In this document: positions 1,747 to 20,804 of the stretch, piece after piece
How the letters are laid out: each line of letters begins with the position of its first letter
Position numbering within the stretch: position 1 is the stretch's first letter
IMG/VR virus record: IMGVR_UViG_3300050045_000022
Coordinates: 1-21,158 of that record
From: a virus
Strand: one strand, 5' to 3'
Length of the DNA: 21,158 nucleotides
Made by a program: the position numbers and the translations under genes
The notes under the pieces: model-generated
The model's input: only the letters and a program-made list of their open reading frames with translations
Database searches by the model: none
Told to the model about the DNA's origin: nothing

Positions 1747-2689
1747 CCGCATTTCACTCGCAACGTTTGCGCTGGCTGTGTTGTTTTCTCTGCCTGCGTT
1801 CGCATGGGACTGTACGACGCCCGGACAGATTCGTATCCAAGTGCCTAACGGCACGGTCGGCACAGGAACTGGTGACGGCAGCGGTCAAGTTGTGACTGTG
1901 CAGGGAATCACGTTTCAGTGTGTGAACCCGCCGTCAGCAAATCCGCCGAATGCTGTCAACACTTCATCGAGCAGCAGCTCTTCTAACAGCTCAGCAACGG
2001 GCGGCAATTCTTCGAGCACCAGCAGCGCTACTGGCGGCAATGCTACGTCGAATCAGACTCAGAAGCAAGGGCAGACACAGAGCAATTCGTCGACCAACAA
2101 CAATCAAAGCTCCGGCGGTTCAGTTTCAGATGTCGGCAACAGTGAGACGACTGTGGAAGCGCCGAAGATCCCTGTCAACACTGCGGAAGCCCCGCCAGTC
2201 TTTTCCACAGCGAATTGCTTCAAAGGCTTCTCAGCCGGCGGGCAGACTGCTGTGGCTGGACTCAGCTTCGGCGGAGGCGGTATCGACAAGAATTGCGCAG
2301 CAGAGCGCATCGCGCAAGACTACTATGCGATGGGCAACAGACTGGCAGCCTGTAAGGTCATCATCACGACAAAAGCATCCAAAGATGCTCACGTCACCCT
2401 TGCGGACTGCTTGAATGTTCCTGAGCGCCCTCGTGTGATCTTGCAGCCGACGCCCCAGGTGCCTTCTGCCCCTCCTGTCTCTGTGACTGTGAATCTACCG
2501 CCACAGCCGCCAGCGCAAGTCCTACCGATCTTCCACGAGTATGTCACTGTGACTGCTACGCCCGCGCAAGTTCGCGCAGCCCGCAGCCCAGCGCACAAGC
2601 CAGCGCCTGTTCACAAAGCACACAAGCCGTGCCCTTTAGACATTTTTGCTGCGGACTTCGACAAGTGCCTAGCTGACTTGAGCAAATAA
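1733..2689 (+). CDS. Large secreted protein with Ser/Asn-rich linker (318 aa)
   Basis: ATG at 1733 follows GGGAGAAC. Residues 1-24 are a signal peptide ending SLPAFA|WDC. A short N-terminal domain (about 25-65) has two cysteines that may pair. Residues about 72-135 are a low-complexity Ser/Asn/Thr/Gln/Gly linker. A second compact domain (about 155-230) contains NCFKGFSAGGQTAVAG, a Gly-rich SFGGGGIDKNC, an acidic helix and MGNRLAACKVIITTK, with several cysteines. The C-terminal 90 residues are Pro-rich (PPQPPAQVLP) and end in a basic region with CPLD and KCLAD. Function unknown; export and modular linkers suggest an envelope or virion-associated protein. Confidence 0.75.
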   Translation: MKRSNRISLATFALAVLFSLPAFAWDCTTPGQIRIQVPNGTVGTGTGDGSGQVVTVQGITFQCVNPPSANPPNAVNTSSSSSSSNSSATGGNSSSTSSATGGNATSNQTQKQGQTQSNSSTNNNQSSGGSVSDVGNSETTVEAPKIPVNTAEAPPVFSTANCFKGFSAGGQTAVAGLSFGGGGIDKNCAAERIAQDYYAMGNRLAACKVIITTKASKDAHVTLADCLNVPERPRVILQPTPQVPSAPPVSVTVNLPPQPPAQVLPIFHEYVTVTATPAQVRAARSPAHKPAPVHKAHKPCPLDIFAADFDKCLADLSK

Positions 2690-2690
2690 C

Positions 2691-2771
2691 ATGGCAGGAA
2701 TCTACATCACGGTGGCGCTCTGCGCCGCAGTACTCGACATAATCTATCAGTGGCGGAGGTCTGTAAAGTGA
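2691..2771 (+). CDS. Very small membrane peptide (26 aa)
   Basis: ATG at 2691 lies two bases after the preceding stop. The peptide MAGIYITVALCAAVLDIIYQ plus WRRSVK is one hydrophobic helix followed by a basic anchor. Its stop overlaps the GTG of the next gene (GTGA), and the next gene's ribosome site lies inside it, so translating this peptide would couple to the downstream gene. The physical pattern and overlap support it, but short length limits certainty. Confidence 0.5.
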   Translation: MAGIYITVALCAAVLDIIYQWRRSVK

Positions 2772-3091
2772 GTGAGCCAACAGCAGCAGAGCTGGACAAC
2801 TTCGAGCAGGAACTGATGATGGAAGAGCAAGACGAGCTGGCGATCGCGCTGCTCATTGACTCTGTGCCATCTTCAGGGAAATGTGACCACGGGGTCTATA
2901 TTGCAAAGGGCGACACCTTTGCTCACTACTGCACAGCATGCAATCCGGGCGTGGCGCGGATCATGCGCCCACCAATGCGCGTTGCTCTTGCGACCAAGCA
3001 AGAGCGCACACTCGACCTCGCCGAATTCTTTGAGCAGCCCCTCTCCGAGAGACTCTCGTTCGCCGCACACATGGAGGACATGACATTATGA
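2768..3091 (+). CDS. Hypothetical protein with possible zinc site (107 aa)
   Basis: I choose GTG 2768 rather than an upstream in-frame start near 2750 because GGAGG (2755-2759) lies eight bases before it and it gives a GTGA overlap. The N-terminus is acidic and helical (SEPTAAELDNFEQELMMEEQ). The middle has CDHGVYIAKGDTFAHYCTAC, where Cys, His, His, Cys and Cys could bind zinc. The C-terminal part (LDLAEFFEQPLSERLSFAAH) is helical. Small proteins with this Cys/His pattern are common in phages and usually of unknown role. It overlaps the next gene by four bases. Confidence 0.7.
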   Translation: MSEPTAAELDNFEQELMMEEQDELAIALLIDSVPSSGKCDHGVYIAKGDTFAHYCTACNPGVARIMRPPMRVALATKQERTLDLAEFFEQPLSERLSFAAHMEDMTL

Positions 3092-4053
3092 AGAAATTCC
3101 TGATGGCTAAACTCATTGGTCTGGTGCTCGTCGGTCATGTCTCAGCACAGGTGAGTAATCATGTTCAAGTACGGATCCAAGAAGTACAACGACTATCAAC
3201 GGTGGTATCAAAAACAAGAGAGCACCAGAGCATACCAGTTATGGCGCACCAAGAAAAGACACAGCGGCAACTGGTCGCGCAGAAAGCTGACATTCAAAGC
3301 ATGGCGCCTGAAGTTTCCAAAACAGTACAGAGTATTGCTGCGCGAGATGGCAGCAGCAGATCGGAACAAAGCGCGGAAGAGGCGGCGCAGCGCCCAGAAG
3401 AGAGCGCACAAGCCAGAACTGCTGAAGAAGCAGCGCAACCGTTGCGCTATCTGCCGTCGCTTGTTTACCAAGAAGAATCTGCCGTGCAAAGATCACTGCC
3501 ACAAGACTCAGAAAAAGCGCGGATTGCTGTGCACCAACTGCAACTTCGGACTGGGGCACTTCAAAGACTCTCCGGAACTGCTCAAGAGAGCAGTCAAGTA
3601 TCTCCGAACATATTCGAGCTCGCGCATGCGATCGCGAAAGCAGAAGGATTCCTAGTTAAAGGATCCTTACCCAACCGGACACACAATCCGGGCGACATTC
3701 GTGCAGTGAGCGCTCACCAGTTCCCCGGGCAGGTGGGGATCAATTCCAAGCGCTATGCGATCTTCCGCAATGACGCCGCGGGCTTCGGAGCGCTCTATCA
3801 TCAGCTTGAGAAAGTGGAAGCAGGCGAGTCGCGCTTCTACTCAGCAGACATCACGATGCGGCAGTTCTCGAAGACGTATGCGGAAGTCAACGATGTGTGG
3901 CTTCACAACGTCTGCAAGATGCTGAGCATTTCGCCCAGCATGACTCTGCGGCAGTACTTCAACAGCAACCGATCGCTGGTGCTCGCTGCTGACACTGCGC
4001 CGCTGGATCCGCCAACGACTTTTGAATTCACCCTAGGAGATGTGCAACCTTGA
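3088..4053 (+). CDS. Secreted lysozyme/transglycosylase-like protein, contains a nested gene (321 aa)
   Basis: Residues 1-20 (MKKFLMAKLIGLVLVGHVSA) are a signal peptide; GGAGG lies ten bases before the ATG, which overlaps the previous stop. From about residue 172 there is a compact domain: a helix with a possible catalytic Glu (ELAHAIAKAEGF), the typical NRTHNPGDIRAV loop, YAIFRNDAAGFGAL and a helical C-terminus. This resembles lysozyme-like domains of phage peptidoglycan-degrading proteins. Residues about 22-170 are low-complexity Gln/Ser/Glu/Ala sequence, the out-of-frame reading of the complete endonuclease VII gene at 3161-3655. The protein would therefore be a signal peptide and enzyme domain joined by an overprinted linker. 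Alternatively the enzyme starts internally (ATG at 3241 or 3301) and the signal peptide is a separate relic. Confidence 0.65.
   Translation: MKKFLMAKLIGLVLVGHVSAQVSNHVQVRIQEVQRLSTVVSKTREHQSIPVMAHQEKTQRQLVAQKADIQSMAPEVSKTVQSIAARDGSSRSEQSAEEAAQRPEESAQARTAEEAAQPLRYLPSLVYQEESAVQRSLPQDSEKARIAVHQLQLRTGALQRLSGTAQESSQVSPNIFELAHAIAKAEGFLVKGSLPNRTHNPGDIRAVSAHQFPGQVGINSKRYAIFRNDAAGFGALYHQLEKVEAGESRFYSADITMRQFSKTYAEVNDVWLHNVCKMLSISPSMTLRQYFNSNRSLVLAADTAPLDPPTTFEFTLGDVQP
3161..3655 (+). CDS. Endonuclease VII-family nuclease (HNH/ββα-metal), nested gene (164 aa)
   Basis: The product has the recombination endonuclease VII layout. A long Lys/Arg-rich helical N-terminus is followed by CAICRRLF (Cys95, Cys98), DHCHKT (Asp111-His114), then GLLCTNCNFGLGHFKDSPE (Cys124, Cys127, Asn128) and a final helix LLKRAVKYL. 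The four cysteines should bind structural zinc and DHCH/N form the nuclease centre. T4 endonuclease VII resolves branched DNA, but many phage relatives behave as free-standing homing nucleases; which applies here is not known. The gene lies entirely inside the 3088-4053 gene in a different frame, beginning just after that gene's signal peptide codons, with a modest GGTGAG ribosome site. Confidence 0.85.
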   Translation: MFKYGSKKYNDYQRWYQKQESTRAYQLWRTKKRHSGNWSRRKLTFKAWRLKFPKQYRVLLREMAAADRNKARKRRRSAQKRAHKPELLKKQRNRCAICRRLFTKKNLPCKDHCHKTQKKRGLLCTNCNFGLGHFKDSPELLKRAVKYLRTYSSSRMRSRKQKDS

Positions 4054-4481
4054 GAGAGAAACTGCTCCAGCTTCTGAACAACAGCCCAGCTACGGCTGGT
4101 CGCCCAGACGACTTTCTGGAAACGCTTGCCGACGACATTCAGGCAGTCATCATCCGCGCCATTCACCCAGCCAACACTGACGATGCTGTTGCAGCGCTTG
4201 AAGAGCAAGTCGAAGAGGTCTACGGCTCTGACTTCGGCGTGCACCTCTTCAACCTCTACTCGGTCGAGAAGTTTCCCGGCAAGAGCGAGCTGGTATTCTC
4301 AGCACGGAAGCGCCTTGTCCGCGCTATGATCCAGACCATTCTCGTTGAGCAATGTATCGACTATGACTGCGACGTAGAAGACATGCCCGCGCTGCTGTCA
4401 AACGTCACCGACGGGAACACACTCAAGCGCCGCCTAACTGAGTTGCAGGCTACTCCTACCCCCGGAGCGCTTCCCAACTAA
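4050..4481 (+). CDS. Hypothetical protein (143 aa)
   Basis: The best start is TTG at 4050, which makes a TTGA overlap with the previous stop and lies ten bases after AGGAGA. The product (MREKLLQLLNNSPA...) is acidic and mostly helical, with LADDIQAVIIRAIHPANTDD, DAVAALEEQVEEVYG and SARKRLVRAMIQTILVEQC. No membrane segment, metal-binding cluster or nucleotide-binding loop is visible. Its length and sequence do not match a family I can name. Confidence 0.7.
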   Translation: MREKLLQLLNNSPATAGRPDDFLETLADDIQAVIIRAIHPANTDDAVAALEEQVEEVYGSDFGVHLFNLYSVEKFPGKSELVFSARKRLVRAMIQTILVEQCIDYDCDVEDMPALLSNVTDGNTLKRRLTELQATPTPGALPN

Positions 4482-4524
4482 TTGCTGGACAGCCGATCAC
4501 AAACTGAAGTACACTGAGGAAACT

Positions 4525-5220
4525 ATGCCAGAGACTGCCGTAGCGGTTGCGCCCGAAGAGAACCTCGCGTACGGCGTTGCAGAACAAGCGCCCGAAGCTG
4601 AAGCCAAACCACAGATGACCCGCGAGCAGGCTGTTGAGTACGTGCTCGGGCATCAGATCAAGTCATTCGAGCAGAACGACATCAAGCAGCGCATCCAAAT
4701 TGCGTTGCGCAAGGGCATCATCACTGAGAATCCCAGCATCGAGTACACGCTGGAAGAATTGAAGGCGCTCGTGCCGCTGCCGCATGACCGCTGGAACTAC
4801 GACTGGGTCAATGAAGAGAAGGGCACCCGCGGCGTAGTCGCCAAGGATGCTCACGGTCTGCTTGCTGTGCCGAAGCAGCGCGGTCGGCGCAAGAAGCACA
4901 TGACCAAACACCAACAGGACATCAAGTCCACTTCGCTTTCCATCTTCAAGCAACTCTTCGCTGCGAAGGCAGAGCGCCTGAAGGCTGTCTGCAAGACAGA
5001 GGAAATCGAGTATCTCGGTGTCCCTGACTCTGCTCTCCCTGAACTGGGGAAGCAAGCTGCAATGCAGGCGCTCACAGCAGTGAAGGACAAAGCGAAGCGC
5101 AAGCGTGACAAAGCGCGGCGCAGACAGAAATACTCACGTGCTGTCAATGCCGGCATCTTCGGCATGAACAACCCCGGGGAGCGCAACTTCGTGGAGCATG
5201 GAGGACAGTTTGGGAGCTAA
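4525..5220 (+). CDS. Hypothetical protein, basic central and C-terminal regions (231 aa)
   Basis: ATG follows TGAGG seven bases upstream. Residues 1-32 are Ala/Glu/Pro-rich and probably disordered. A helical domain follows (TREQAVEYVLGHQIKSFEQN...RIQIALRKGIITENPSIEYT), then a basic stretch (PKQRGRRKKHMTKHQQD), a helical Ala/Lys region and a very basic tail (KAKRKRDKARRRQKYSRAV). The charge pattern suggests nucleic-acid binding, but no known motif supports a specific role. The 42 bases before it contain no clear promoter. The end overlaps the next gene by 23 bases. Confidence 0.7.
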   Translation: MPETAVAVAPEENLAYGVAEQAPEAEAKPQMTREQAVEYVLGHQIKSFEQNDIKQRIQIALRKGIITENPSIEYTLEELKALVPLPHDRWNYDWVNEEKGTRGVVAKDAHGLLAVPKQRGRRKKHMTKHQQDIKSTSLSIFKQLFAAKAERLKAVCKTEEIEYLGVPDSALPELGKQAAMQALTAVKDKAKRKRDKARRRQKYSRAVNAGIFGMNNPGERNFVEHGGQFGS

Positions 5221-5943: not shown

Positions 5944-7068
5944 ATGCCAATCAATGAAAAGACAACACTGAGCCTGACTCTGCGCCCAAAAGACTTCTCG
6001 GAAGTCATCGGACTCGATGTGGCGGTGAACACTGCCAAAGCCAAGCTGGATGCCGGCGGCGTGCCACGCGCTATCCTGCTCAAAGGACCTTACGGTTGCG
6101 GCAAGACGACTCTCGCGCTCATCATTGCGCGTTACATCCAGGGTCCTCTCTTCGACGGAGAGCCAGACATCGAAGAAATCAATGCAGCCAACTACCGCAA
6201 GATCGACGACATGCGCACGCTCATTCAAGGCTGCGGATCTTATCCGATGCGCGGTCTCTACAAAGTCATCCTGATGGATGAGTGCCACCAGCTCACGAAA
6301 GATTCCAAAGAGGTGCTGCTGAAAGAGCTGGAAGCGAAGAAGTCAACGACGGTGTGGATCCTCTGCACCACGGATCCCGGGTCATTGAATGAGGGCATCC
6401 GTTCTCGGTGCATGATTCTCGAAGTCAAGGGCATGGAAGCGCAAGAGCGCCACAACCTCATCGCCCGCGCATCGAATGAGTTGCAGCACTTGGGAGACAT
6501 CACTCCGTTCGAGAACGAGATTACGAAACAGAACGTCGTGAGTCCGCGCAAGATTCTGCAAGCGTTTGAACTCTACCACTTCGGCACGCCTCTCGCTCAG
6601 GCAGTTGCTCAGCAAGCCATCGAGAGCCTGCCGGAGTATTCTGACATCGCGCTCTGCTGCATCTACGGCAAGTGGGACGAACCAGTCACCATATTCGGCG
6701 GCTCTGTGACTCTCAAGCCACTCGGACAGTTGCTCAAGGAACTCGATGAGCGCTTGAAGAAGAAGCCAGCGCCTTCGTCTGACACTTCAGAGAAAGAAGA
6801 CAGCATCGACGGAGATGACCTGGGGAGCAAGACGGAAGTTGCGACAGCACTCCGTGCAATCTTGGGCGCCTATCTCAAGGGTCAACTTCTGCCGACAATC
6901 CAGAAGAACAATTCCTTCAAGTTCAAACAGGCTGCGCAGAGCGAGAAAGCTGCCCGCGCAATGAACGTGCTCGCCAGCTTCATCAATCCTGCGGCGTTCG
7001 AGTTGCAGTGGTCTGGAGTGATCGCAACGCTGTACAAAGTGAATTCTATAATGCAAGGAAACAAGTAA
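5944..7068 (+). CDS. Clamp-loader AAA+ ATPase (DNA polymerase III gamma/tau or RFC small subunit-like, 374 aa)
   Basis: This protein should open and load a sliding clamp on primed DNA for the replicative polymerase, using ATP. It begins with LRPKDFSEVIG (the usual 'RP..f.evvG' start of clamp loaders). Walker A is GPYGCGKTT (residues 48-56), Walker B VILMDECH (about 108-115), sensor 1 CTTDP (141-145) and the diagnostic SRC motif lies at 154-156 (IRSRC). A lid domain follows, then a variable acidic linker (about 275-300, SSDTSEKEDSIDGDD) and a helical C-terminal oligomerisation domain. The zinc module of bacterial gamma/tau is absent, as in phage and archaeal RFC-like small subunits. The ribosome site is weak. 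The polymerase and clamp are not in this window. Confidence 0.93.
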   Translation: MPINEKTTLSLTLRPKDFSEVIGLDVAVNTAKAKLDAGGVPRAILLKGPYGCGKTTLALIIARYIQGPLFDGEPDIEEINAANYRKIDDMRTLIQGCGSYPMRGLYKVILMDECHQLTKDSKEVLLKELEAKKSTTVWILCTTDPGSLNEGIRSRCMILEVKGMEAQERHNLIARASNELQHLGDITPFENEITKQNVVSPRKILQAFELYHFGTPLAQAVAQQAIESLPEYSDIALCCIYGKWDEPVTIFGGSVTLKPLGQLLKELDERLKKKPAPSSDTSEKEDSIDGDDLGSKTEVATALRAILGAYLKGQLLPTIQKNNSFKFKQAAQSEKAARAMNVLASFINPAAFELQWSGVIATLYKVNSIMQGNK

Positions 7069-7081
7069 GCTGTAGTATAAT
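7047..7081 (+). promoter_or_regulatory. Possible sigma70-type -10 elements before the HNH gene
   Basis: Two perfect TATAAT hexamers occur within 35 bases, at 7047-7052 (end of the clamp-loader gene) and 7076-7081 (touching the ATG at 7080). Neither has a convincing TTGACA-like -35 at 16-18 bases. Free-standing nuclease genes often carry their own promoter, which makes the site worth noting, but this is weak evidence. Confidence 0.2.
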
Positions 7082-7523
7082 GTCAAGCATGAGCACAAAA
7101 CTTTGTGAGTGCGGCTGCGGCTCAGAAGTGATGCCTGACAGTCGGGGCAGACAGCGACGTTTTATCAACAGGCATGCTCGTAGGTCTCACAGGATGACAG
7201 ATACACCCGAAGAGCATGCTTATAAGGGCGCCAAGCAGCGCTGCACTAATCCGAAGCATCCCAAATATCCTGACTACGGCGGTCGAGGGATCAAGTTTCT
7301 GTTCACGTCATTCGAGCAGTTCTATGCTGAGCTAGGTCCTCGCCCGCCCGCTGTAGATGAGCGCGGTAAAGCAATTTACTCTCTTGACCGCAAAAACAAT
7401 CACGGAAACTATGAACTCGGAAATGTGAGATGGGCTACGCGCAGCGAACAGCGCTTAAATGAGCGTCGCATGGAAAGCAAAGAAACTATTTTGTGGGGCA
7501 CGGAGGGATTCTCAAAATGTTAG
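7080..7523 (+). CDS. HNH-type endonuclease-like protein (147 aa)
   Basis: The product starts with a Cys cluster (LCECGCGSEV) that resembles a zinc knuckle and a basic region (RGRQRRFINRHARRSHR). It then has the pattern typical of a large phage HNH-like family: AYKGAKQRCTNPKHPKYPDY, GGRGIKFL, a helix around FEQFYAELGPRPP, and YSLDRKNNHGNYELGNVRWA followed by TRSEQRLNERR. The LDR.nN.G.Y..gNvRWAt segment corresponds to the catalytic/DNA-binding core in this family. Starts at 7080 or 7089 are both possible. It sits between the clamp loader and membrane genes as an apparently independent insert. Confidence 0.8.
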   Translation: MSSMSTKLCECGCGSEVMPDSRGRQRRFINRHARRSHRMTDTPEEHAYKGAKQRCTNPKHPKYPDYGGRGIKFLFTSFEQFYAELGPRPPAVDERGKAIYSLDRKNNHGNYELGNVRWATRSEQRLNERRMESKETILWGTEGFSKC

Positions 7524-8347: not shown

Positions 8348-8791
8348 ATGAGCAACTTTGTTTATTCCAAATCCGGCTTGGCGTTCACTGAGCGCTTCGA
8401 GTCTTGCCGTCTCACTGCTTACCAAGACATCCGCGGAATCTGGACGATTGGATGGGGGCACACAGGTCCGGAAGTCGTCGAGGGTCTTGTGTGGACTCAA
8501 GAGCAGGCGGATGCTCAAGCGCTTGCCGATACGGACCGCTTCCAGACCAACGTCAATCGCGTCGTGACTTACCCGATCAACCAGAACGAATTCGACGCGC
8601 TCGTTGACTTCTCCTTCAATGACGGCAATGCTGCGCTCGACGGATCCACGCTGCTCAAAGATGTGAACGAGGGCAACCTTGACGGCGCTGCTGCGCAATT
8701 CCAATTGTGGGATCATGCCGCTGGAAAAGTCGTAGCCGGGTTGCTGCGTCGCAGACTCGCTGAAGCTGCGGAGTTTACCAATGGGAATTAA
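8348..8791 (+). CDS. T4-type lysozyme (GH24 endolysin, 147 aa)
   Basis: This endolysin should cleave the glycan chains of peptidoglycan at the end of infection. The catalytic triad of the family is in place: Glu18 (RFESCRLTAY), Asp27 (YQDIRG) and Thr33 (WTIGWGHT), with the same 9 and 6 residue spacings as Glu11-Asp20-Thr26 of T4 lysozyme. QNEFDALVDFSFNDG and the C-terminal LLRRRLAEAAEF segment also match the fold. There is no signal peptide or N-terminal membrane anchor, so it needs a holin to reach the wall. The gene is preceded by a GAGG ribosome site and overlaps the next gene by 11 bases. Confidence 0.92.
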   Translation: MSNFVYSKSGLAFTERFESCRLTAYQDIRGIWTIGWGHTGPEVVEGLVWTQEQADAQALADTDRFQTNVNRVVTYPINQNEFDALVDFSFNDGNAALDGSTLLKDVNEGNLDGAAAQFQLWDHAAGKVVAGLLRRRLAEAAEFTNGN

Positions 8792-9005: not shown

Positions 9006-9436
9006 GAGGTCTTTTCACCGGAATGTTCGGTGAACTCGCACTCGTCGGCTTAATCATTCTCGGACTCTACTGCATAGCAGCCCGCGCCGACACCACAGCA
9101 AGTCACAAGCAGCGCAGCAATGCCTTCGGCACTACAGCCTACCAAGACAACCCCAATTCCTATCTGGTCGGTTACGTGAGTAGAGCAGATGTGGCGCAGG
9201 TGAGCAAGAGCCGAACCATCATCGTGTTGGAAGTCCGCCCGATGAACACCTTCCAGATGTTCTCTCAGCAGTTGCAACTCTGCGACGGCATCAGTGAGGA
9301 CCTCGGTAAGAAGCTGATGGAAGCAATCGACAAGCGCGAAGTGATCGTGTTCACCTACAGTCGTGTCAGACATCTGACAGAATGCAACGACTTGTACCGG
9401 ATTGACCAGATGGCGACTGAGCCGCTGCCGCAGTAG
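8990..9436 (+). CDS. Secreted or membrane-anchored hypothetical protein (148 aa)
   Basis: ATG 8990 follows a GGGGG ribosome site and overlaps the previous gene by 16 bases. Residues 1-34 (basic RSLRG, then GELALVGLIILGLYCIAARA) look like a signal peptide with cleavage after ARA, or an uncleaved anchor. The mature part is a mixed alpha/beta domain with VGYVSRADVAQVSKSRTIIV, a helix around NTFQMFSQQLQLCDG and REVIVFTYSRVRHLTECNDLY, with two cysteines that might pair. Unknown function. It ends before the structured noncoding region. Confidence 0.7.
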   Translation: MPRSLRGLFTGMFGELALVGLIILGLYCIAARADTTASHKQRSNAFGTTAYQDNPNSYLVGYVSRADVAQVSKSRTIIVLEVRPMNTFQMFSQQLQLCDGISEDLGKKLMEAIDKREVIVFTYSRVRHLTECNDLYRIDQMATEPLPQ

Positions 9437-9468
9437 CCCGTCACAGGTTGCCAGATATTATGCCACAA

Positions 9469-9567
9469 CGGGCATTGCGTTCTGGTGTAAGTCTGCACGC
9501 ACTCCACTCCGGAGTTGAGGTACGCAATGCCCGCCCCCTATTCAATAGGGGATCCGCGGGGCGGGGG
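9469..9567 (+). promoter_or_regulatory. Nested, mutually exclusive inverted repeats (candidate RNA switch)
   Basis: Three perfect inverted repeats occur in this noncoding stretch. Stem A: 9469-9480 with 9522-9533 (12 bp, CGGGCATTGCGT), with a 41-base loop that contains the palindrome ACTCCGGAGT. Stem B: 9535-9542 with 9544-9551 (8 bp, CCCCTATT). Stem C: 9530-9537 with 9558-9565 (8 bp, CCCGCCCC with GGGGCGGG). Stem C shares bases with both A and B, so A+B and C cannot form together. C also captures much of the G-run that is the only ribosome site of the gene at 9573. No T-run follows, so it is not a typical intrinsic terminator. Confidence 0.6.
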
Positions 9568-11067: not shown

Positions 11068-11301
11068 ATGGCAATTCATGTCTACGCATGCAAGTACGGG
11101 CATCGCATCGAGATGGATGAGCCCGCCAATCACGAATTCAAGAGACTGCGCTGCAATCATCACTGGAAGGGACTCGGCACTATCTGCGGTGCTCGTCTTG
11201 TGCTGAGCGCTAACGTCGCGACAGCGCCTCCCATTCTGAAAGCCGGTGGAGTAGGTGGATTCTACAAACCAACACGACCAGAGCGCCACTCGGAAGACTA
11301 A
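11068..11301 (+). CDS. Zinc-ribbon-like small protein (77 aa)
   Basis: ATG 11068 follows AAGGAG by seven bases, so the longer frame open upstream is not needed. The N-terminal half has VYACKYGHRIEM, LRCNHH and GTICGARLVL, giving Cys/His positions that could bind one zinc, as in regulatory zinc-ribbon proteins. The C-terminal part is Gly/Pro-rich (PPILKAGGVGGFYKPT) and basic. It overlaps the next gene by 47 bases. Confidence 0.65.
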   Translation: MAIHVYACKYGHRIEMDEPANHEFKRLRCNHHWKGLGTICGARLVLSANVATAPPILKAGGVGGFYKPTRPERHSED

Positions 11302-11680
11302 GCCCGAGTACGACAAGTGGTACCATCGCGCTCACTGGTATCGGCTGCGCGGCATGGTGCTCGCGCGGGATCCCATCTGCAAGATGTGCAATCGCAATCC
11401 TTCCACGATTGCAGATCACATCCTTCCGCACAAGGGAATCTGGGAGTTATTTTCTGACTTGCTGAACCTCCAGGGGTTGTGCAAGGGCTGCCATGACATC
11501 AAGACTTCGCGAGAAGACGGTGGCTACGGCAGAGCGCCAGCAACTCACGAGCGCACAGAGACACCGAAGCCCGTTCCGACTGGAGAAAAGGGCGGCGCAG
11601 AGTTTCAGTCGTCAAGTATTTCAACATCCAAGCTCGATAAAGCACTTGAGATGGATGAAGACTTTCTGAAGGGCTTATGA
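11255..11680 (+). CDS. HNH endonuclease (141 aa)
   Basis: The sequence has the complete HNH core: ARDPICKMCN (Cys42, Cys45), ADHILPHKG (Asp54-His55, His59), LLNLQGLCKGCHDIKT (Asn71, Cys76, Cys79, His80) and the final basic residues. Two CxxC pairs bind structural zinc and DH/N/H form the metal-dependent nuclease site. This is the same class as the HNH proteins located beside terminase genes in many siphophages, where they support DNA packaging, but no terminase is seen here. The C-terminus is acidic and Ser-rich. The start is GTG 11255 within the previous gene, with GGTGGAG upstream. Confidence 0.85.
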   Translation: MDSTNQHDQSATRKTKPEYDKWYHRAHWYRLRGMVLARDPICKMCNRNPSTIADHILPHKGIWELFSDLLNLQGLCKGCHDIKTSREDGGYGRAPATHERTETPKPVPTGEKGGAEFQSSSISTSKLDKALEMDEDFLKGL

Positions 11681-12108
11681 GATGCAGCACCTGTAACGGT
11701 AAAATAAAGAAGAACCAGAATCGTAAAGGAGTATGTAACCGCTGTTACCAAGCAAAGTGGATGCGTGAGCACTACGATTTGGAAAAGCGGAGAGATTGGC
11801 GCCAGCGTAATGCAGCGCGACTCATGCTCCTTGGCGCAAAGAACAGTGGCGGAGAATGCACAATTTCTTTGGATGATATTGTGATCCCTGAGTTTTGTCC
11901 TGTGCTCGGAATCAGGCTCATGACAAAATGTATGAAGAGAGGCACTACATCGTTAGATGCTGCTCCGTCTCTTGACCGTCGCGACAATTCCCGTGGTTAC
12001 GTTCCAGGGAATGTATTCGTAATCTCTCAGAGAGCTAACAGGCTCAAGAGTGATGCTTCACCAGAAGAGTTGCGCCGCTTGTGGATGTATGTTAGTATTT
12101 CAGAGTAA
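11677..12108 (+). CDS. HNH-like endonuclease with zinc knuckle (143 aa)
   Basis: Coupled to the previous nuclease gene by ATGA. An N-terminal zinc module (MRCSTCNGKI...GVCNRCYQAK; Cys3, Cys6, Cys20, Cys23) is followed by a basic helix and the core CPVLGIRL, PSLDRRDNSRGYVPGNVFVI, SQRANRLKSDASPEEL. The sLDR.Dns.GYv.GNv.viS.rAN..K pattern is characteristic of a phage HNH/endonuclease VII-like family. Its direct succession to another HNH gene of a different subtype is notable. Probable free-standing homing nuclease. Confidence 0.8.
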   Translation: MRCSTCNGKIKKNQNRKGVCNRCYQAKWMREHYDLEKRRDWRQRNAARLMLLGAKNSGGECTISLDDIVIPEFCPVLGIRLMTKCMKRGTTSLDAAPSLDRRDNSRGYVPGNVFVISQRANRLKSDASPEELRRLWMYVSISE

Positions 12109-13018: not shown

Positions 13019-13360
13019 ATGACTGTGCTCATGCTGCCGAAGTGCCCGCAATGTGAAACAGCTATGGGCTGGGATGAGTCTCTGCCCCTTGAGAACGGAA
13101 AGATGGCGAAGTGTCCGAAGTGCGGGCATCTCACACCGTGCTGGGAAAAAGAGGCGCCCGCGCCCCGCAAGAGAAAGCCGCAGACTTTAGCAGAGCTGGA
13201 ACCCGTCCCGTTCGCGTGGAAGACGAAGAAGCATGGCGCCGTCACTGTGACTGCTATCAGCCCTTCGCAGAGCGGCGGACTGGTAGAGATTGACGACGGT
13301 GAACACGCGCCGTGTTGGGTGCGGGGTAAGAGCATATTCGGTTTTGATGTGTACTGCTGA
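13019..13360 (+). CDS. Zinc-ribbon protein (113 aa)
   Basis: The N-terminal ribbon has KCPQCETAM and KCPKCGHLTPC, spaced by about 24 residues, a good zinc-ribbon. A basic Pro-rich linker (KEAPAPRKRKPQTLAELEPV) leads to a small beta domain (GAVTVTAISPSQSGGLVEID; FGFDVYC). A DNA- or RNA-interacting role is plausible but not shown. It shares the last base with the ATG of the next gene. Confidence 0.7.
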   Translation: MTVLMLPKCPQCETAMGWDESLPLENGKMAKCPKCGHLTPCWEKEAPAPRKRKPQTLAELEPVPFAWKTKKHGAVTVTAISPSQSGGLVEIDDGEHAPCWVRGKSIFGFDVYC

Positions 13361-13812
13361 TGCCAAAGCGGAAAGACACTTGCGCAGAGCATCCAGACAG
13401 TCCGCGCATTCCGCGCGGCTACGGTGAGACCGGCCGAACACGGTGCGCTGCTTGCTTCAAGAATATGCACCAGCGTTCAGCACTGAAGCGAGCCACTGAC
13501 CCGCGGTACCGTTACAATCTCGCTAAGGTGCACGCAAAGATTGTCGGAAAAGAATTCACGCTCACGTTGCCAGAGTACTCGGCGCTGATTTCTCTTCCGT
13601 GTGTTTATCGAATCTCGGCTGCTGACGACCAGAAGATTGGACTGGACAGACGAGACAACACAAAGGGTTACACTTTAGAGAACTCATTACCGTGCTGCTC
13701 TTTACACAACACGATGCGGAATCGGTTCTTCACGTATGAGCAGACATTAGAAATCGTGCAGCGCTATCAGATACACTGCGGGAGCATGGGCTCTGGAGCT
13801 AGGAAGAAATAA
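13360..13812 (+). CDS. Endonuclease VII/HNH-like nuclease (150 aa)
   Basis: Begins MPKRKDTCAEHPDSP with a possible N-terminal Cys/His module (RTRCAACFKNMHQR). The catalytic half contains DDQKIGLDRRDNTKGYTLEN, SLPCCSLHNTMRNRFF and a helix TYEQTLEIVQRY. The LDR.Dn..GYt.eN..pcC..hN..r pattern matches free-standing phage HNH nucleases of the same broad family as the gene at 11677. The cysteines in PCCSLHN replace the spacing seen in classical HNH. Starts and ends with one-base TGATG/TAATG junctions. Confidence 0.75.
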   Translation: MPKRKDTCAEHPDSPRIPRGYGETGRTRCAACFKNMHQRSALKRATDPRYRYNLAKVHAKIVGKEFTLTLPEYSALISLPCVYRISAADDQKIGLDRRDNTKGYTLENSLPCCSLHNTMRNRFFTYEQTLEIVQRYQIHCGSMGSGARKK

Positions 13813-16293: not shown

Positions 16294-16686
16294 ATGAAGA
16301 CAGGCACTACATGCAAGACTACGAAGCGTTATCCGCGCTGCACAGCCGGACCGCTGCGGCACAAGTACATCCACAGGATTGTGGCGGCTGCGCTGCTCGG
16401 CAGAGAGTTGACGAAGGATGAAGAGGTTCACCACAAAGATGGTGACCGTCGCAACTTCAACTGGGACAATCTGCTGGTGCTCGGATCCAAAGACCACGGT
16501 TGGGTGAGCAGCAAGCAGAACTGGTACATGCGCGAGCATGACTTCCTGCTCAAGCAAGAGTGGGATGACTACATGGAAACCGAGTACAAACGGTTCGCTG
16601 CCGATATTGCTGTTGCAAAAGCAAACGGCGTGCCGTATAGTGTTGAAGACGGACAGATGAGAGAGCGCTTCGAAGGGTGGTCATAG
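16294..16686 (+). CDS. HNH homing-type endonuclease (130 aa)
   Basis: The core is a clear HNH_3-like motif: KYIHRIVAAALLGRELTKDE, EVHHKDGDRRNFNWDNLLVL, then GSKDHGW. His46 and His47 (HH), Asn54/Asn59 and His68 are the likely metal and catalytic positions. A C-terminal helical part follows (FLLKQEWDDYMETEYKRFAA). There is no Shine-Dalgarno at normal spacing, and the 82 bases before it hold no gene. The end is immediately followed, in the same frame, by radical-SAM sequence, suggesting insertion into or next to that gene. Confidence 0.85.
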   Translation: MKTGTTCKTTKRYPRCTAGPLRHKYIHRIVAAALLGRELTKDEEVHHKDGDRRNFNWDNLLVLGSKDHGWVSSKQNWYMREHDFLLKQEWDDYMETEYKRFAADIAVAKANGVPYSVEDGQMRERFEGWS

Positions 16687-18785: not shown

Positions 18786-18817
18786 TGGGTTGGAGATTCT
18801 AACAAGGAGAATTGAAC

Positions 18818-19603
18818 ATGTCACGCACCATAAAAGATATTTTGGCTCTGTTTCCCGAAACAACAAAGAAGGATTGGAAGCAACACGCAAGAGGTGATGG
18901 GTGGGTGTGTAGCACCGCCCATGCACATGAATCTTCCTTCATCGAAGGCATTGTGTTCGGCAATGCTCAGGTGTACGGCGCTTGGGTGTCCGGCAATGCT
19001 CAGGTGTTCGGCAATGCTCAGGTGTACGGCAATGCTCAGGTGTCCGGTGATGCTCAGGTGTACGGCAATGCTCGGGTGTCCGGCAATGCTCGGGTGTACG
19101 GCAATGCTCGGGTGTCCGGCAATGCTCGGGTGTTCGGCATTGCTCAGGTGTTCGGCAATGCTCGGGTGTCCGGCGATGCTCGGGTGTCCGGCAATGCTCG
19201 GGTGTCCGGCAATGCTCGGGTGTCCGGCAATGCTCAGGTGTCCGGCAATGCTCAGGTGTCCGGTGATGCTCAGGTGTCCGGCAATGCTTGGGTGTTCGTC
19301 AATGCTCGGGTGTCCGGAGATGCTCGGGTGTCCGGCAATGCTCGGGTGTACGGCGATGCTCAGGTGTACGGCAATGCTAAGGTGTACGGCGATGCTTGGA
19401 AAACAGCTCCGCTGTTGGTACAGGGAACCCAGCATACAGCAACCAACTGCAAACATGGTTTCATTGCTATTGGTTGTCAAGTTCACACCTTCGCACATTG
19501 GCAAACACATGTTGAGAGCATTGCGCGTGCACATGGTTACACCGAAGTTGAAGTTGCAGAGTATCGCTCAATCGTTGACTTCATGGTTAAGGTTGGTAAA
19601 TAG
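18818..19603 (+). CDS. Hexapeptide-repeat (left-handed beta-helix) protein, copy 1 (261 aa)
   Basis: ATG 18818 is seven bases after AAGGAG. The N-terminus (about 1-47; IKDILALFPETTKKDWKQHA) is shared with the paralogue at 20001. Next come 24 hexapeptide units, G-N/D-A-Q/R-V-S/Y/F, encoded by 18-bp repeats. One unit is five residues (GAWVS), from a 3-base deletion. Such repeats fold as a left-handed beta-helix, one turn per three units, as in bacterial hexapeptide proteins. A C-terminal domain follows, with VQGTQHTATNCKHGFIAIGC, HTFAHWQTHVES and a final helix. No enzymatic motif is seen. The role could be a structural scaffold, host interaction, or nucleotide/acyl-binding trimer; none is shown. 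Composition differs from the neighbours. Confidence 0.8.
   Translation: MSRTIKDILALFPETTKKDWKQHARGDGWVCSTAHAHESSFIEGIVFGNAQVYGAWVSGNAQVFGNAQVYGNAQVSGDAQVYGNARVSGNARVYGNARVSGNARVFGIAQVFGNARVSGDARVSGNARVSGNARVSGNAQVSGNAQVSGDAQVSGNAWVFVNARVSGDARVSGNARVYGDAQVYGNAKVYGDAWKTAPLLVQGTQHTATNCKHGFIAIGCQVHTFAHWQTHVESIARAHGYTEVEVAEYRSIVDFMVKVGK
18959..19399. repeat. 18-bp tandem repeat array in hexapeptide gene 1
   Basis: About 24 copies of an 18-base unit (ggcaatgctcaggtgtcc-like). Units differ mainly at three codons: cag/cgg/tgg (Gln/Arg/Trp), tcc/tac/ttc (Ser/Tyr/Phe) and aat/gat (Asn/Asp). The unit pattern makes all six frames open, producing long false ORFs on both strands. The block 19136-19315 is collinear with 20229-20408 in the second array. 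Confidence 0.95.
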
Positions 19604-19896: not shown

Positions 19897-20017
19897 GTTG
19901 TTTGAGGAACGTGCTGCAATCATGCAGTACGACGGCAACATGACCAAAGAGCAGGCCGAGCGTGAGGCAAGTAAAGACCGACAAATTAACAAGGAGAAAC
20001 ATGAAAACCATCAATGA
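19868..20017 (+). CDS. Small charged protein (49 aa)
   Basis: ATG 19868 follows GAGGTACCC by a normal spacing. The product MSERKTQSSELFEERAAIMQ continues with YDGNMTKEQAEREASKDRQ, a pattern familiar from short phage proteins with a helix-turn of the '(I)MqyDGn.T.eqAe..A' type, function unknown. It overlaps the end of the preceding gene and the ATG of the second hexapeptide gene at 20001. Confidence 0.65.
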   Translation: MSERKTQSSELFEERAAIMQYDGNMTKEQAEREASKDRQINKEKHENHQ

Positions 20018-20804
20018 CATTCTAGCGTTGTTTCCGTGGACAAATGCCGAAGAGTGGAAACAACACCCAAAAGGTAATGGGTGGGTCAGTATTAATGCAC
20101 ATGTGGAAGCATCATGCACCATCGAAGGTTTGGTGTTCGGCAATGCTCATGTGTCCGGCGAAGCTCAGGTGTCCGTCAATGCTCAGGTGTTCGGCGATGC
20201 TCAGGTGTCCGGCAATGCTCGGGTGTCCGGCATTGCTCAGGTGTTCGGCAATGCTCGGGTGTCCGGCGATGCTCGGGTGTCCGGCAATGCTCGGGTGTCC
20301 GGCAATGCTCAGGTGTCCGGCAGTGCTCAGGTGTCCGGTGATGCTCAGGTGTCCGGTGATGCTCAGGTGTCCGGCAATGCTTGGGTGTTCGTCAATGCTC
20401 GGGTGTTCGGCAATGCTGCTGTGTTCGGCAATGCTCGGGTGTCCGGCAATGCTGCTGTGTTCGGCAATGCTCAGGTGTCCGTCAATGCTGCTGTGTTCGG
20501 CAATGCTTGGGTGTTCGGCGATGCTCAGGTGTACGACAATGCTCGGGTGTCCGGCGATGCTTGGGTGTTCGGCAATGCTCATGTGTCCGGCGATGCTTGG
20601 GAAACAACCCCATTATTTGTGCAAGGCACAAGGCACGGCGCAACCAACTGCAAGCATGGTTGGTTAGCAATAGGTTGTCAGGTCCGCACCTTTGCCGATT
20701 GGAAAGCCAACGTTGAGACAATTGCCGAAGAGAATGGTTACACCAAGAAGGAAGCGGCTGAGTACCGGGCAATCGTTGACTTCATGGTTAAGGTTGGTAA
20801 ATAG
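20001..20804 (+). CDS. Hexapeptide-repeat (left-handed beta-helix) protein, copy 2 (267 aa)
   Basis: ATG 20001 lies after AAGGAGAAAC. It is a paralogue of the protein at 18818: similar N-terminus (MKTINDILALFPWTNAEEWK), 25 hexapeptide units, all of six residues, and similar C-terminal domain (FVQGTRHGATNCKHGWLAIG, then AEYRAIVDFMVKVGK). Units with Ala at the variable position (GNAAVF, VNAAVF) occur only here. The last 66 bases of gene plus downstream are identical to the first gene; the rest of the C-terminal region differs at many positions. A role in adhesion or as a virion/host-surface protein is possible but unproven. Confidence 0.8.
   Translation: MKTINDILALFPWTNAEEWKQHPKGNGWVSINAHVEASCTIEGLVFGNAHVSGEAQVSVNAQVFGDAQVSGNARVSGIAQVFGNARVSGDARVSGNARVSGNAQVSGSAQVSGDAQVSGDAQVSGNAWVFVNARVFGNAAVFGNARVSGNAAVFGNAQVSVNAAVFGNAWVFGDAQVYDNARVSGDAWVFGNAHVSGDAWETTPLFVQGTRHGATNCKHGWLAIGCQVRTFADWKANVETIAEENGYTKKEAAEYRAIVDFMVKVGK
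20139..20600. repeat. 18-bp tandem repeat array in hexapeptide gene 2
   Basis: 25 full units plus the start of another, all in the same register. Units 6-14 (20229 to about 20390) follow the same order of rare variants (GIAQVF, GNARVS, GDARVS ... GNAWVF, then VNARV) as units 11-19 of the first array, while the flanking units differ. Confidence 0.95.

Follow-up and report, generated by a model that had tools for sequence, protein, structure and literature searches.

Nuclease genes inserted out of frame into phage genes were described in 2025 for the ShiLan domain and for Pacc40 gp60 (Arsenault, Gosselin and Gogarten; PMC11855218). These are HNH nucleases inside DNA methylase genes, and no ribosome-binding site was detectable for them. 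The locus examined here resembles them in that a nuclease occupies another frame of a phage gene, the host frame stays open, intron or intein parts are lacking and the distribution is patchy. It differs in that the nuclease is of the endonuclease VII type, the host gene codes for a putatively secreted lysozyme-like protein and the ribosome-binding site of the nuclease is clear; moreover, a near-identical empty allele is known and host DNA supplies the C-terminus of the nuclease. The ShiLan type is characterized by an HNH nuclease ORF in another frame within the insert, an open host frame and uninserted homologues. All of these features are found here, with the last 16 nuclease codons lying in host DNA, except that the nuclease belongs to the endonuclease VII family, which also consists of beta-beta-alpha-metal nucleases (PMC6083498). 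Since it is an endonuclease VII and not an HNH nuclease, we consider the locus a variant of the ShiLan type rather than a member in the strict sense. In the 2025 paper, a term search found neither endonuclease VII nor lysozyme nor synonymous-codon tests. This kind of nesting has thus been described; new in the present case are the endonuclease VII family, a host predicted to be secreted, the clear ribosome-binding site and the near-identical allele without the insert. A previous interpretation made from the DNA letters and their open reading frames (the sequence-only reading) had viewed the locus as an unusual mobile gene that adds a linker to its host protein; unusual it is, but not unprecedented (PMC11855218).

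Three other groups of elements invite comparison. F-CphI, a homing endonuclease of cyanophage S-PM2 with the DHHRN (endonuclease VII) motif (PMC6083498), shares the catalytic motif C-C / D-H-H / R / C-C-N with the nuclease studied here and is 41% identical to it over 68 amino acids; its gene, however, is free-standing downstream of psbA and not nested in another frame. Inteins also leave the frame of the host gene open, but the present insert is without a self-splicing domain, and the host-frame peptide lacks the nuclease and would be retained. SegF, SegG and MobE of T4-like phages are reportedly free-standing and spread by cleavage of empty sites, whereby the flanks are co-converted; they lie between genes or split a gene, whereas the host frame here is whole. 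SegF and SegG are among the enzymes cited in PMC6083498. In the literature searched, no endonuclease VII was found nested out of frame, in a secreted protein or inside an intein.

The window, by which we mean the whole 21-kb stretch analysed, is an IMG/VR virus record from a metagenomic contig. Its ORF list contains a host ORF at 3088-4053 (321 aa) and a nuclease ORF at 3161-3655 (164 aa), both on the plus strand and the second offset by +1 from the first, so the nuclease gene is indeed nested in another frame of the host gene, as had been proposed. The host gene overlaps both of its neighbors, starting inside an ATGA shared with the gene upstream (2750-3091) and ending inside a TTGA shared with the one that follows at 4050; it is preceded by a Shine-Dalgarno sequence GGAGG (3073-3077, duplex energy -9.3). 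Its 321 codons comprise a signal peptide, a linker of about 149 residues rich in Q, S, E and A, and a lysozyme-like domain. The signal peptide (MKKFLMAKLIGLVLVGHVSA, 3088-3147), with probable cleavage before Q (VSA/Q) as judged by reading the sequence, opens the frame at 3088 as had been claimed; it is nearly the same in L002, a close relative of the host gene, and similar N-terminal signals are found in the more distant relatives L005-L010.

When IMG/VR was scanned with the host domain, contig L002 was the sole close relative. The L002 gene codes for 172 aa (MKKFLMAKLVGLVLVGQVAAQVSGNVYELAHAIAW...) and is 447 nt shorter than that of the window. Alignment of the two places 447 nt (net) of inserted DNA at about 3157-3606, with junctions located within a few bases; the length of the insert is divisible by three. 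Identity to L002 is 98-99% up to 3137, drops to 63% in a 19-nt tract on the left of the insert (3138-3156) and to 60% in a 58-nt tract on its right (3607-3664), and is 97-100% from there to 4201, including 253 nt downstream that are identical. Short tracts that are diverged but homologous and hug the insert are as co-conversion from a diverged donor would leave them. Distant secreted relatives from three IMG/VR locus groups (L005/L006/L010, L007/L008 and L009) are 42-47% identical to the host domain, which in these proteins follows the signal peptide within about 10-15 residues and without a linker. With no insert between signal peptide and domain, these distant relatives mark the short form as ancestral; the window and L002 as a pair could by themselves reflect a loss in L002 by recombination, and it is the distant relatives that give the polarity. 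The sequence-only reading had suggested a search for uninserted relatives of the domain and an alignment of their junctions, and L002 provides such a version with near-identical flanks. Together with the distant short relatives, it supports the idea that a nuclease gene was inserted at the signal-peptide junction with the host frame unbroken, leaving a linker that is predicted from the inserted frame. No second occupied allele was found, the insert being known from one metagenomic contig only; two scans of genome contigs with the host domain and a search of 8 kb of DNA against named phages returned no match.

The nuclease was matched to endonuclease VII by both Pfam (PF02945, E = 3.3e-19) and PHROG (PHROG 2914, 2.9e-23). 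It shows the residue pattern of DHHRN-type enzymes (CX2-4C, DHxH, R, CX2CN) with C95, C98, D111, H112, H114, R120, C124, C127 and N128 all intact, which bears out the earlier statement that no metal or catalytic residue is missing. Its Shine-Dalgarno sequence, AGGTGAG (3149-3155), lies within the host codons CAG GTG AGT for QVS and has a duplex energy of -8.4, a strength matched by 8.8% of the ATGs in the window. The corresponding site in L002 reads CAA GTG AGC, with a pairing energy of -4.6. The C-terminal YL conserved in the family is encoded at 3599-3604, which is the right junction, and the nuclease proper ends there; most of its relatives end a few residues past YL. The last 16 codons (RTYSSSRMRSRKQKDS, 3605-3652) and the stop are host-gene DNA read in the nuclease frame, in agreement with the earlier observation that the 3' end of the nuclease gene also encodes the conserved start of the host domain. 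Members of the endonuclease VII family are free-standing in many phages. As a single-protein query against IMG/VR, the window nuclease returned no near relative, and an alignment of nine endonuclease VII proteins contained no stretch conserved enough to serve as a scan query.

Two further features were noted along the L002 alignment. QVS is encoded at both ends of the insert (CAGGTGAGT, 3148-3156; CAAGTATCT, 3595-3603) and once in L002 (CAAGTGAGC); this doubling is possibly a decayed target-site duplication or due to chance. We do not claim such a duplication because the right copy also encodes the conserved KYL of the nuclease. In addition, identity to L002 falls sharply from 97% to 76% at 4202-4480, inside the downstream gene, in what appears to be another recombination border unrelated to the nuclease.

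The host frame across the insert encodes 147 residues of the linker (3157-3597) with 15% Q, 13% A, 12% S and 10% E and a net charge of 0, a composition that fits the low-complexity Gln/Ser/Glu/Ala linker foreseen earlier; its fold is mostly of low confidence in the predicted model. The domain that follows (AHAIAKAEGF ... NRTHNPGD ..., 3598-3960) has pLDDT values of 80-93 over most of its length. Profiles of the domain family matched PHROG endolysins (2.9e-8) and tape measure proteins (5.6e-7), and a PDB profile search matched Gp29 (9vvp, 3.9e-5). A Pfam search of the host domain gave no match. In Foldseek, the linker obscured the search with the full host model, and a search with the domain by itself also had no strong match, the one to Enc34 endolysin being weak. 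Weak PDB profile matches to lethal factor (E 0.05-0.08) were judged to be due to chance. The host domain thus appears related to virion-associated endolysin and tape-measure domains. The existence of a domain at the end of the host frame, as claimed earlier, is clear; the lysozyme label is moderately supported, and "lysozyme-like" seems reasonable for what we treat as a putative hydrolase. A canonical phage lysozyme is encoded elsewhere in the window (8348-8791; PF00959, 2e-42), which makes it unlikely that the product of 3088-4053 serves as the main endolysin.

The host frame is open through the whole nuclease gene, as the sequence-only reading had pointed out, with no stop over the 148 core nuclease codons. 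When the nuclease codons were permuted synonymously among themselves, 3.9 host-frame stops were expected (P0 = 0.005); the expectation rose to 6.5 stops with synonymous shuffling by phage codon usage (P0 = 0.0006) and to 8.9 stops when codons were drawn as in the window's remaining nuclease genes (P0 = 2e-5). Likewise, T-ending codons are used at none of the 33 nuclease positions where a host-frame stop would arise and at 13 of 71 elsewhere (Fisher P = 0.005). In those remaining nuclease genes, each of the alternative forward frames is interrupted by 2-15 stops. The host frame is therefore open beyond chance. The shuffle tests fit both selection after insertion and the survival of inserts that were already open; the avoidance of stops could be a survivor bias, with only open-frame inserts persisting, rather than the result of later selection.

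We propose that a homing gene of the endonuclease VII type was very probably inserted into the gene of a secreted lysozyme-like protein, just past the codons of its signal peptide and with the nuclease in the +1 frame, giving a host protein with a disordered extension and an intact domain. Since the insert is a multiple of three and without host-frame stops, ribosomes starting at 3088 would read through it and produce a preprotein for secretion, in which a disordered N-terminal extension of about 149 residues would be retained ahead of an intact, possibly still functional domain. Ribosomes starting at 3161, guided by the Shine-Dalgarno sequence that overlaps the host QVS codons, would produce the nuclease. 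Cleavage by this enzyme would presumably hit the empty allele close to where signal peptide and domain meet, and repair from the occupied allele would copy the insert together with short flanks. The strong ribosome-binding site, kinship with F-CphI, a proven homing endonuclease, the avoidance of stops and the near-identical flanks in L002 all favor this explanation, and further gains and losses of nuclease genes distinguish the window from a related contig, G001 (L018 and L019).

Other explanations of the locus were considered. The long host frame would be accidental if the insertion had broken the lysozyme-like gene and left its domain dead or internally started, and weak in-frame starts do occur inside the insert (GTG 3484 and GTG 3529). 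This is improbable, however, given an insert divisible by three with no stop where 3.9-8.9 are expected, and downstream DNA of 253 nt identical to L002. No in-frame start is present between 3529 and 3706, so the domain could hardly be made separately, and an internal start would forfeit the signal peptide common to the secreted relatives examined. The sequence-only reading had named as signs of an accidental frame a domain starting at an internal ATG after the nuclease and stops in the linker frame of close relatives; neither was seen. It is less probable still that the insert is spliced out as a group I intron or an intein and leaves no linker. Homing nucleases are often carried in introns and inteins, and a nested relative (L102, below) sits within an intein in another gene, but the insert here is almost entirely nuclease gene and so has no room for a ribozyme; neither an Rfam match to a group I or II intron ribozyme (E<=1 over 2600-4600) nor a Hint domain in the host frame (Pfam) was found. 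The order of events could also be reversed, with the linker as an old part of the host protein in which the nuclease frame arose or was captured, as a dual-coding stretch with a low-complexity protein on one side might suggest. We give this the least credence, for the nuclease belongs to a conserved family that is free-standing in many phages, and the other secreted relatives found, including L002, are without the linker.

A more serious contender, although still unlikely, accepts the arrangement as real and holds that recombination with an empty donor removed the insert from L002, the nuclease of the window now being a resident that no longer homes. The flank pattern would be the same whichever way gene conversion went, and it is L002, not the window, that departs from the family consensus AIAKAEGF with AIAWTEGF. 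Against a resident nuclease stand its undecayed reading frame and its full set of active-site residues. Loss in L002 is compatible with the anatomy we propose for the insertion and differs from it only in present mobility.

Insertion of a nuclease gene without damage to the host frame is not confined to this locus. We screened 80 endonuclease VII loci from IMG/VR for openness of the alternative frames, and most have many stops in both. Six of the 80 are contained in a long host ORF that is read in a different frame. Five of these hosts (L031, L048, L074, L089 and L034) are helicase genes with Helicase_C, four of them also with N6_N4_Mtase; the sixth (L102) is an intein (Intein_splicing, 3.7e-17) carried by the gene for the large subunit of a phage terminase. 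The L102 nuclease (1644-2222) is nested within L102:715-3153 where the intein's own homing endonuclease would sit, and some named phages match this terminase in two pieces, without that stretch.

A second survey covered 80 helicase-methylase loci collected by host homology and not deduplicated. The site is empty in most loci, and an endonuclease VII is nested at one common site in L107, L108/L109, L111, L155 and L168, of which L107, L108 and L111 are on the same contigs as L089, L048 and L031. The two surveys thus place such nesting at one helicase(-methylase) site, between the two helicase lobes, in seven lineages (L031, L048, L074, L089, L034, L155 and L168), with the nuclease found in both alternative forward frames. 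The nested nuclease of L155 matched F-CphI over 93% of the query. At another site, AP2/HNH-like nucleases are nested in L158 (1687-2265) and L112/L113 (L113:1711-2307); the published Pacc40 gp60 insertion, an HNH nuclease recovered as a positive control, lies at this same site. A third helicase site holds an endonuclease VII in L231, and ordinary in-frame inteins are present in four loci of the survey. The host frame was retained in all nine survey loci with an out-of-frame nuclease. No host frame of the survey is interrupted, even the shortest running open for 316 aa before the site, and the host frame is open in every nested case found. Nested endonuclease VII genes make up 7 of 142 in the pool, which was chosen by similarity and so gives no general frequency. 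Out-of-frame nesting is a recurring class and not a single case. The argument from chance is uneven across this class, since codon permutation was non-significant for L102 (0.40), L158 (0.24), L113 (0.75), L231 (0.26) and Pacc40 (1.0).

These cases imply that a selfish nuclease can, by dual coding, settle in a gene that is not killed by it, with no need for splicing. Whether the principle is general we regard as evenly balanced: introns and inteins may be joined by out-of-frame nesting as a third means by which phage homing endonucleases reside inside useful genes, with the DNA of the element selected to code for harmless filler in the host frame. This would span endonuclease VII and HNH nucleases and secreted lysozyme-like, helicase-methylase and terminase-intein hosts, and the secreted filler may even be a working linker. 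The nested set allows selection to be measured on both frames, and the window and L002 form a single pair of sequences in which homing and the tolerance of the host frame can be put to a direct test. Nested endonuclease VII genes such as those in helicase-methylase genes and the intein may escape annotation that assigns one gene to each stretch.

Five or more additional nuclease genes of HNH or HNH-like type are present in the window (7032-7523, 11255-11680, 11677-12108, 13360-13812 and 16294-16686). Several nuclease genes present in either the window or G001 are missing or replaced in the other; that at 13360-13812 is absent from G001, and an endonuclease VII gene at G001 9112-9516 is absent from the window. 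Two paralogous genes with GNAxVxGxAxV repeats of the left-handed beta-helix type lie at 18812-19603 and 19962-20804, with a further locus in L002 (3135-3665); on either strand, several reading frames of their DNA are open. In G001 a relative of the repeat gene occupies a different position, and the repeat gene thus itself looks mobile.
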